The notes beneath the pieces were generated by a model. It saw only the letters and a list, made by a program, of their open reading frames with translations. It did no database searches and was not told the DNA's origin. Both the position numbers and the translations under genes were made by a program. From contig JAFCMP010000166.1 in NCBI GenBank assembly GCA_017506865.1, positions 62,001 through 126,000 of the forward strand: a stretch of DNA of 64,000 bases, given 5' to 3'. The stretch is from Tribonema minus (taxonomy: Eukaryota > Sar > Xanthophyceae > Tribonematales > Tribonemataceae). Of the stretch, positions 6,601 through 57,085 are shown piece by piece; position 1 is the stretch's first letter; each line of letters starts with the position of its first letter.

Positions 6601-7746
6601 GGCCTTACCCATTCCATCAAAAGTTGGCGCTTTGTGGATGCCATCACGGTTTGCATCATCTTGAATTTCACCACGTGGTCAAAACCGAGCAAGTACTGTA
6701 GTTGTCACAAGGCCCAGCTCGAATTCAACCATCTGATTCACCTGGATTGGCACCAGGAGCAACAACAACTTGAAAATACAGTTTCTGTTTGCCCACAGCA
6801 CTGACCATCAGAGCATAGTGACTTAACAAAGCAATGGACACTGGCAATAGCACACATACACACGTGGACAGTGGAAGCATCAATACTTGACACGGTGGAT
6901 TGGCACTCCTGCAATAGTCTAATGCAGTCACCAAAAAGCGCAGTGCCTGGCTCATGAGTGTGCTCGCCCGCAACAAGCATGCAAACTTTATTCGGCTGCA
7001 ATACATATTTTTCATTTGCAATTGCGCTTCTCATGTGGAACTTGCAGGCGGGCTACTTCTTCCGGGACCACTCAGACACAGTGGTTGCTGATGAGCAGCT
7101 TACTCAGCTACTCTCCTTCCACAATGTCATCCTCACAGCGCATCAGGCGTTCTTCACCCAGGTATGCAAGTTGTGTTGTTATGCGCTGCTTTGCCTTGTG
7201 CTACGACATGCAAGTAGGAAACTCTTGCTCAGTCACTGCATTGAGTGTTACATGATGAGTATGGTCCATGTTTCTTGGAGGATAAGATGTACTTTTTATT
7301 GGTTCTCGCTCAGGGCGCGAAAAAGCCCAGATGAATGGCATCTAACTTGAAGCTTGCTATATGGAGTCTACATGTCGTGTGACAGTCTGAAAGCGTCTTG
7401 ATAAGATGTACTTCTACATATATGTGCTTGTAGTGCAATCATGCTAGGAAACCTTTTGAATGAATTGGACTTTGGCGCCTTCAACTTGCATACCGTACTA
7501 CCGCAGTAAACTCTTGTGATGCAACACTTGCATTATGATGAAATTACGCATTTATGTTTCAACATGTGATGTAGACCTTTATCGTGTTTGCGGTTGGGTC
7601 AGCTTGATCTGCTTCTAAAATATTTCCCCTGGTGCGCATTGCAGGATGCCATCACCAACATCGTCAACACGACGCTGGCAAACATTCGGGACTACATGGA
7701 GGGCAAGACTGGACGGGAGCACCCCAATAGCATCTACTCCAAGTAG
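609..7746 (+). CDS. Cyclic-nucleotide-binding-like domain fused to D-lactate dehydrogenase (510 aa, 11 exons)
   Basis: Exons read as 609-781, 1111-1238, 1894-2068, 2870-2972, 3382-3554, 3935-4075, 4722-4791, 5245-5463, 5897-6031, 7048-7161 and 7645-7746. Every junction is GT-AG and keeps frame. Residues ~20-155 have the cyclic-nucleotide-binding fold pattern (VDRMILLEDGTLE, then [19 protein letters not shown]). Residues ~170-510 are a full bacterial-type NAD-dependent D-2-hydroxyacid/D-lactate dehydrogenase: [13 protein letters not shown], nucleotide motif GTGKIG (327-332), INTSRGG (Arg410), DVYENE (Glu439) and TAHQAF (His471), so the catalytic Arg/Glu/His set is complete. The likely reaction is pyruvate + NADH to D-lactate. 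The two domains are joined through exon 3 to exon 4, where CA|G restores a codon exactly. The phosphate-binding cassette is degenerate: Arg89 and Ser104 stand where the usual Glu and Arg bind cyclic nucleotide. No transit peptide is seen, so a cytosolic location is likely. Confidence 0.85.
2255..2342. repeat. Tandem direct repeat, two 44-bp units
   Basis: Two adjacent units sharing GGCAGTTGACTCATGTGTTG, starting at 2255 and 2299, differ at a few positions. They lie within intron 3 of the D-lactate dehydrogenase fusion gene and look like a simple local duplication. Confidence 0.8.
4883..4936. repeat. Tandem direct repeat, two 27-bp units
   Basis: Units at 4883-4909 and 4910-4936 differ at two positions and share GGGGCCCTTCCTC. 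They are intronic, in the D-lactate dehydrogenase fusion gene. Confidence 0.8.
6303..6692 (-). other. Intronic open frame of unclear status (129 codons, no ATG at its upstream end)
   Basis: An open frame on the minus strand lies inside the 1-kb intron 6032-7047 of the dehydrogenase gene. The local composition (many CG and AAAA/TTTT blocks, about 6330-6690) differs from the surrounding TG/CA-rich intron, which suggests an inserted sequence. I recognise no motif, and no flanking duplication was found. It may be a transposon remnant or chance. Confidence 0.2.
7281..7411 (-). mobile_element. 107-bp 3' tail of the 5.5-kb retrotransposon family, with 12-bp target-site duplication
   Basis: Positions 7293-7399 match the last ~110 bp of the full-length copies at 45787 and 57081: TTTTTATT, then CTCAGGGCGCGAAAAAGCCC, then the stretch ending in GACAGTCTGAAAG. 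The piece is flanked by perfect repeats GATAAGATGTAC at 7281-7292 and 7400-7411. It is therefore an authentic, severely 5'-truncated insertion by target-primed reverse transcription. It lies antisense in the last intron of the D-lactate dehydrogenase fusion gene. The 3' junction is directly at GTAC, as in all other copies here. Confidence 0.9.
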
Positions 7747-10332
7747 ACGTGCACCTACTTGGCACGGCATTGAACGAACGATGGGACAAGTGTGTTGTCA
7801 CACCAGACATCAGTACAGCTTGTAGTGCCCGCAGTTTTAAATTGTTGCTGATAGCTGGCTGCAAGCTCACAAGCTGATATGCACGGCGCCATCAGAACAG
7901 ATTAAATGCAGCAGCAGCAACAGGCTTGCAGAGCATGCTTCGTGTTTGTTGCTGGCAAGTAATGCCGCCATCTATGTAGATACCACAGCGGGTGTCAGGA
8001 GCGGCAACGGCCGATAAGATTTTTACTTCTGTATTGCATGCAATTTCAATGGACCAGCAAAGCTCTGGTGCCAAATGTATACTTCTACTGGTGATGCTCT
8101 CAACGCTCATGTCTACCTGCTTGTGAATGTCAGTGCATGATGCAAGCGGCAGACTCATCTCTGAAGCCGTTTATTCTGTTGCCAGTCAGTTCGAAACGCT
8201 CCCCTTGCCATAATTTGTTCCTTTCTTTTCTGATAGTTTGGGCAACAGCCAAAATACTTCCCAGGAGGTGCGCCATGACTTGGCGTTGTAACACTGTTGT
8301 GTCCTGGTAGAGTCGCAAGACTCTGGCACTATTAAACGGTTAATTGGGCACATTCCAAGGCAGATTGACCGGCGGATAAAGTTTTGCACATGTGAGACCA
8401 TGGCATATACAAAGTTGCTTGTCTTGAGGGCTGCAACAGATATGGCACACTCATGTATGTACGCAGCACCAATACCAGTACCAACTCAGCAGCTGGTGCC
8501 GCTGTCTTCGTGCTCAACCTATACATTTGCGTTGGCATGTTGAACGTCATTGTGGCCCTTCCCCGACGTGAGGAACATGTGAATTACAAAAACAAAGGTC
8601 CAGTGGCCAGCAGGCACACTTTATCAGCACGTCTTGAGTCAACTGCAACCAGGAGCAAGCATTGTTCTTTTCATCCTTGTGGCGAAGTTGGACTACTGTC
8701 TCGAACCTGCACGTTTTGTGCCAGAGCGTTCTGTGTGTAGGCATCCTGCTTTTGTTAAAGTAGGAGTCGCAATGAGAGCCTTACGGTGGAGTTACATTTG
8801 CCCCAAAGGCAGGGTGCTGATGCGGATCCCCGTCATTCAACAGAGCCAAAGCTTATGTGGTCTTGTATTCTTGATCATCCTTGATGGATAAGGTTTCACG
8901 ACGCCCAATGGTCACATCTACCTCTGCTGTTCTTTGCATGCATCTGTACCCCGCTGCTGCAGTGTTTGTTCTTTTGTCATTGTGCAAAAATCACGCAAAA
9001 ATCTAGACATACTACTTGCACGCCATTCCGGTTCTCACAATGAGGGCATGCCTGACCGTTGTTGTCATTTTTATGTCCAAGAGCTGCAGAGTGCCCTTGC
9101 CAGTGCAAACGCCTCAGCCCCCAATTGATTAACCTTTGCAGAGTATCTCGTCGAAGCCCACTGGTACTCTAGTTTTTTTGGTAACAGTAACCAACACAAG
9201 ACGACATTTTGCAGCCTCAGAGATGCACACATGACACTGAATTCTGGCGCACAGGGTGCCGATTACTGCGGTACAGCATTGTACTCCCGGCCACCTGCCT
9301 GCATGCACAATAGTGATGTAAGGCCATGTAGACTGCAGCCCCTAATATGTCACATGATGTCACGTTCAGTCATTGGTCAGTCAAGGTGGCGTTGCGAGGG
9401 CCGCCACTATGCATTTATTTGTCACATTCAATGTGGTTCATGGCGTAGTACACGTGCAGTTCAAGCGCCACACGTGTGACAAGGGAGCATACGGTGAACC
9501 ACATCGCTTTCCACGATGGACGGCATGCATGTACATGTAGGGAGCGCTGAATTGCTGCCTGCGCTGCTACCACCTGCGCCTTGCAAGGGCGGTAATGTAT
9601 GCTGTCTAGGAGTCACTGCATGGAGGCAGTTGCATGTACTCTGATGTACTTGATTATAGTATACTCGAGGGTGCAACACGAGGGCCATTGTATGCTGGCC
9701 ACCATGCACATTTTTGTAATATTTCTTGCCCTTGACACCTGCGTTGCCTACATTGATTGGTTGGCGCTGTCAGCGTGGTCTTTTTGTTGCTGTTCACTGC
9801 TGCAAATGAGCTGGTACTTGGATAGCCACACAAAGCATTCAGAGCTTCGCAAAAATTGCTTTTCTGTGGATGCTGATCACCAGTTTGCAGATGGGGTTAT
9901 GTTTTGACCTGGCAAGTGCTTCGTCGCCATGAAACTTGCACTGCTAGGCAAAGCCTTGGAAAGTGCCGCTCCCCATAGCCTGTCAGCTATCAGTGCTGTG
10001 GGATCTTCTGTTTGCTGCATGAATCATGACCTGTCGTCAATTCTCAGCATGCAGTGGCACAGCACTTTTTGTGTCGGATCATCAGCTTTTTAGTGACTAG
10101 GTGATTCACGCACTTGGTCACCAGAGAGTGAGATCTGATTCCCTTCACAAACTGATTGGCACTTGTTGGTCAATGTGTAGTAATGGCAATCGCGTGGTGA
10201 GCTCCTTGATTCATTGGATTTGCTACTTGACGCATTGCCAGACCTTCGAAGTCCCTGAGGCTCCGCGAAAAACCACTGGCAGGCAGGCATCTTACAGCGC
10301 AAGCGTGACAGTTATAAGCCCAGAAACATTGT
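7747..10332. other. Gene-free interval
   Basis: About 2.6 kb between the dehydrogenase stop codon and the first retroelement. Only short open frames without recognisable motifs are present on either strand. The first few hundred bases are presumably 3' UTR. No RNA gene, long repeat or splice-consistent exon chain was seen. Confidence 0.5.
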
Positions 10333-57081: not shown

Positions 57082-57085
57082 GTAC

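Follow-up and report, generated by a model that had tools for sequence, protein, structure and literature searches.

Both retroelement families of the window, a stretch of 64,000 bp from Tribonema minus (contig C166, positions 62001-126000, of an assembly of 158 Mb in 554 contigs), are read here, with a probability of about 80%, as non-long-terminal-repeat (non-LTR) retrotransposons of the restriction-like endonuclease (RLE) group whose insertion, by target-primed reverse transcription, takes place at the palindrome GTAC. They are referred to below as family 1 and family 2. An earlier sequence-only reading had reported that six of six retroelement 3' junctions of the window abut GTAC; all six are present at the positions given. 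The target duplications of 12, 13 and 16 bp that it had described are real, and both copies of each were located. The elements, open reading frames (ORFs) and duplications at these junctions are:

7281..7292, minus strand: 3' copy of the 12-bp target duplication GTACATCTTATC of the truncated family 1 copy
7293..7397, minus strand: diverged 5'-truncated family 1 copy, GTAC at 7292-7289 directly after the 3' end
7400..7411, minus strand: 5' copy of the 12-bp target duplication GTACATCTTATC
10333..10345, minus strand: 3' copy of the 13-bp target duplication GTACCGTTGCAAC of the family 2 copy
10346..14052, minus strand: 5'-truncated family 2 copy (3.7 kb), ORF 10424-14041, sharing 99.9% identity with the contig C11 copy
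14103..14115, minus strand: 5' copy of the 13-bp target duplication GTACCGTTGCAAC
45126..45565, minus strand: 5'-truncated family 1 copy, GTAC at 45125-45122
45602..45752, minus strand: 5'-truncated family 1 copy, GTAC at 45601-45598
45771..45786, minus strand: 3' copy of the 16-bp target duplication GTACCATCGGCGTGGC of the full-length family 1 copy
45787..51344, minus strand: full-length family 1 copy, ORF 45895-51234 (1,779 amino acids)
51345..51360, minus strand: 5' copy of the 16-bp target duplication GTACCATCGGCGTGGC
51576..57081, plus strand: full-length family 1 copy, ORF 51640-56973 (1,777 amino acids, P0001), 5' boundary approximate
57082..57085, plus strand: GTAC after the 3' end of the plus-strand family 1 copy

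A search at the 5' side of the remaining three junctions gave no duplication. No match was found for the junction at 45125, only an 8-bp match inside the copy itself for that at 45601, and only an 11-bp match, distant at 1214, for the plus-strand copy at 57082.

Junction counts and sequence preference

Element ends were counted genome-wide as exact patterns with the two strands summed; the reversed-pattern controls were 0 in each. GTAC follows 1,346 of 1,420 exact ends of family 1 (666+680 of 706+714; 94.8%), and seven further ends (4+3) carry one extra A and then GTAC. For family 2 the count is 822 of 1,014 (398+424 of 490+524; 81.1%), about 250-fold over the window background of 210 GTAC per 64,000 positions. 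The mark of more than 90% GTAC, set by the sequence-only reading for such a count, is passed by family 1 and missed by family 2. A looser family 1 tail (19 bases, at most two mismatches) occurs 1,842+1,760 times in the genome.

Flanks were sampled, in each case unselected for flank, from all 42 listed family 1 places on contigs C2-C6, from 25 full-length family 1 copies, and from 29 of 30 family 2 loci; L032, without the exact 26-base end, was left out. Family 2 ends outside this sample were L001 (GTAC) and L010 and L011 (ATAC, one place). The 42 junctions comprise 41 GTAC and one AGTAC, and GTAC is present in all 25 full-length copies. It is also present in 25 of the 29 family 2 copies, the others being GTGC (three) and GTTC (one), i.e., the third tetramer base varies (A 25, G 3, T 1). 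The 12-base flanks are distinct in 40/42, 25/25 and 29/29 cases, respectively, and lie on many contigs. As read in the assembly, these junctions show dispersed rather than single-locus insertion specific to GTAC, in two different families, as had been proposed.

The base after GTAC (+5) is A in 36 of the 42 family 1 junctions (the AGTAC junction being one of the 42) and in 19 of the 25 full-length copies; among the 29 family 2 copies it is A in 16 and C in nine. Information in the 42 family 1 flanks is 0.31 bit at +6 and less than 0.1 bit from +7 to +14. Upstream of the duplication, A stands at -1 in 18/25 and at -2 in 17/25, and the preferred site of family 1 is AA|GTACA. Where a copy has T at -1 (FL21, L152), this T is missing at the 3' junction, and the nick is thereby located to the GTAC border.

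Target duplications were tested in 58 copies. The test required six bases to the left, and excluded 19 of the 42 family 1 copies, whose 5' ends lay beyond the fetched stretch. Duplications of 8-13 bp, most often 12, were found in 25 copies, and 24 of them begin with GTAC; the 25th belongs to the family 2 copy L026, with GTGC in both duplicates. The 13- and 16-bp duplications of the window were counted separately from these 25. Full-length family 1 copies have duplications of 9-13 bp in 13/25; in the other 12 the sequence retrieved has 4-6 shared bases, an observation that speaks neither for nor against a duplication. No motif was visible at the far end of the duplications.

Element structure and protein domains

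Both families have the hallmarks of non-LTR elements, namely a constant 3' end, 5'-truncated copies and target duplications. The Pfam domain RVT_1 of reverse transcriptase (RT) is present in both, in family 2 exactly at the cut-off. In RT profile searches of solved structures the best match was R2 (E 2.5e-11 and 1.6e-4), and single-sequence searches of the PDB with P0001, P0002 and P0012 gave no match. The domains and motifs in the window are:

53854..54468, plus strand: family 1 RT domain, Pfam RVT_1, residues 739-943
56275..56712, plus strand: family 1 RLE motifs CCHC, RMD, VDV and K..HY, residues about 1546-1691
12608..13159, minus strand: family 2 RT domain, Pfam RVT_1, residues 295-478 of P0002
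10661..11098, minus strand: family 2 RLE motifs CCHC, then D, D, K, residues about 982-1127 of P0002

A C-terminal CCHC followed by D, D and K of the PD-(D/E)XK type is found in seven rows of the family 1 type and 12 rows of the family 2 type. P0011 departs from this pattern in lacking the first C and in a K shifted by one position towards the C-terminus. The residue before the first D is M, or A, I or G, and not P. The D, D and K downstream of the CCHC are putative catalytic residues, by analogy with R2. A predicted structure match indicates an R2-like fold for the family 2 nuclease. In a tree of 27 proteins (two from the window and 25 of the 44 homologues found, mostly unnamed relatives) the two families form deeply split branches. 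The nuclease that the families had been proposed to share is thus borne out as far as RLE-type motifs occur in both; its part as the reader of GTAC would be a further step.

Family 1 scored in at least 26 places genome-wide and family 2 in at least 38, both numbers being lower bounds. These places were scored at 99-100% identity, so both families look recently active. Outside the window the open frame of family 2 reaches about 2,990 amino acids, and its copy on contig C11 spans about 9.8 kb between the duplications, by arithmetic from positions.

The window contains a head-to-head pair of near-identical full-length family 1 copies (45787-57081), and a comparable pair is located at C445:598156-610194. 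The 5' ends of full-length family 1 copies (L070-L119) form groups with different upstream stretches, each common to several copies, which looks like carry-over of upstream flank. In the annotated T. minus proteins P0006 (chromo domain) and P0010 (Lon protease), roughly half of the RT region of family 1 is present at 99% identity, and element sequence thus seems to have been merged into these gene models. A search with P0012 gave at least 40 scored genome places of further RT families, 33-36% identical to P0012, with frames up to 1,433 amino acids and of about 1,400 in many copies. Searches for relatives in viral contigs gave 9 and 106 pattern matches, none of which was confirmed. Inverted repeats of 96-155 bp with 92-100% complementarity, possibly a fold-back element, are located at 18451-18883 and 21323-21532 of the window.

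Proposed mechanism and reuse of the site

By analogy with the known mechanism, the first nick would fall directly 3' of GTAC on the priming strand, with 5'-TGTAC^TT-3' as the preferred site; the freed end would prime complementary DNA synthesis from the RNA tail, and the other strand would be cleaved at a distance of about 8-13 bp. Recognition of the tetramer would lie with the C-terminal nuclease that the element itself encodes. Since an insertion leaves the palindromic GTAC at either side, a further element could enter there from either strand; such reuse would account for nested arrays and for tail-to-tail pairs. At L005, L010 and L013, short tails are nested head to tail with GTACA between them. 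Pairs of a family 1 and a family 2 tail with one common GTAC number 15 exact cases and six with one mismatch; a rough hand expectation, which ignores duplicated DNA and the preference for A, is one or two such pairs by chance. Tail-to-tail pairs of family 1 with itself share one GTAC at three places, and one such pair of family 2 lies at C26:86979-87034. Repeat units of the TTAGGG type were observed between two nested family 1 tails (L013:1588-1625).

It may tentatively be proposed that both families are separate branches of a deep RLE clade, with a four-base nuclease of the nicking type (GTAC^ on the priming strand), dispersed and near-exact targeting, a target that is kept, and insertions that seed arrays. 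Insertion at GTAC suggests how an element could stay site-specific without using up its target, with nested arrays following from it. A compact palindrome accounts for well over 1,000 insertions in T. minus, whereas RLE elements are mostly known as single-locus or unspecific. With such a compact target, sequence reading by an R2-type nuclease could be tested with short substrates, and two deeply split natural enzymes that use one site with unequal strictness (94.8% vs 81.1%) are available for comparison.

Alternative explanations

GTAC could be the conserved last four bases of the elements and not target DNA, as might be thought from its presence after nearly all exact family 1 ends; the sequence-only reading had named this as the refuting case. 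GTAC is, however, also found 5', as the first bases of the duplication, in full-length as well as truncated copies, L026 repeats its GTGC in both duplicates, and 18.9% of family 2 ends carry other sequence. The tetramer is therefore target, and the case for an element end is refuted, with next to no probability left to it. Inflation of the counts by a few insertions that were multiplied through segmental duplication or in the assembly is just as improbable: L144 and L145 have one flank in common, in opposite orientation, and some full-length copies have common stretches upstream of the joint 5' part, but the distinct 12-base flanks of all three samples contradict it. A better case, although still an unlikely one, is that the specificity for GTAC is real and is set by an N-terminal DNA-binding part, by base pairing of the RNA end with the nicked strand, or by a host factor marking GTAC. 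The N-terminal DNA-binding domains of R2 help to position the enzyme, and inspection of P0001 by eye shows a C2H2-like stretch close to its N-terminus; family 1 favours A ahead of the nick and its RNA tail is rich in A, and three of the four primer bases (GTAC) could pair with the terminal ATAC of family 2. In contrast, the terminal AAAAA of family 1 cannot pair with GTAC, and at family 2 junctions ATAC and GTAC are both retained, which means that these bases were not where the primer lay. The motif is moreover common to both deeply split families despite their different RNA tails, and a four-base palindrome would be typical of a nuclease site.

An R2-type nuclease that reads GTAC is the likely cause, judged from sequence and predicted structure. 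Several observations weigh against this interpretation or soften the numbers behind it. The nuclease step is inferred; for the family 1 nuclease the structure model is of low quality (predicted local distance difference test score 53), leaving the R2-like fold to family 2, and the N-terminal part of family 2 may hold other domains outside the Pfam scan, which covered the last 1,205 amino acids. The family 2 site is looser, with 192 of 1,014 exact ends lacking GTAC. Older family 1 tails are weaker as well: on contig C1, where the looser tail was used so that older copies were included, GTAC follows 21 of 28 (counted by eye), and the other seven are one base off (GTAG twice, GCAC twice, GGAC, GTGC and GTAT), a result that decay of older copies, or a site that is not absolute, would produce. 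In three of the 25 copies with a duplication the target is the tail of another family 1 copy, and this raises A at -1 and -2. The duplication test was not passed by 33 of the 58 copies; FL6, FL7 and FL16, with 10, 10 and 11 bp near the edge of the fetched stretch, were dropped by the six-base requirement, and in the rest no duplication reached 8 bp. Through chance matches to element bases, some lengths (L026, L138) are perhaps overestimates.

Comparison with known systems

R2 (R2Bm, R2Tg) is close in its RT profile, in the nuclease fold predicted for family 2 and in target-primed insertion. It differs in using one site in the 28S ribosomal RNA (rRNA) gene, whereas insertion here is dispersed, and RT similarity is low by the profile E values given above. 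An R2-type single 28S rRNA site was rejected, judging solely by the distinct sampled flanks on many contigs, and a Utopia-type single U2 small nuclear RNA (snRNA) site solely by the distinct flanks. Yellow-green algae are stramenopiles. Utopia, of the NeSL clade, has one U2 snRNA gene site and is present in oomycetes, also stramenopiles; the HERO clade has many non-specific members and some that target microsatellites. Both are RLE non-LTR elements likewise, and the available part of that source describes no GTAC target (PMC4640811). T. minus is termed a yellow-green alga in the accessible text of PMC12477816, which gives two families and 4,821 copies of CRE, an RLE clade, for the brown alga Ectocarpus, another stramenopile alga, with no target stated there. 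R2-like RLE elements of Blattella germanica that are not site-specific are likewise dispersed, at random locations, and the sections at hand of PMC7650587 describe no short motif.

A literature search for GTAC with RLE or target-site duplication terms, which covered a minority of subscription papers, found no such target described among the papers listed; a rice MULE paper that mentions GTAC has a different subject. The proposal that no described non-LTR family has this target agrees with the literature searched, as far as the available parts of the sources go. The closest functional precedent seen there is EhLINE1/EhSINE1 of Entamoeba histolytica, whose RLE-type nuclease prefers 5'-GTATT-3' and thus also has a short motif, although a different and non-palindromic one, with several nicking hot spots on one substrate (PMC3118788, available text). 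In T. minus, in contrast, one tetramer is found at 94.8% and 81.1% of the exact junctions.
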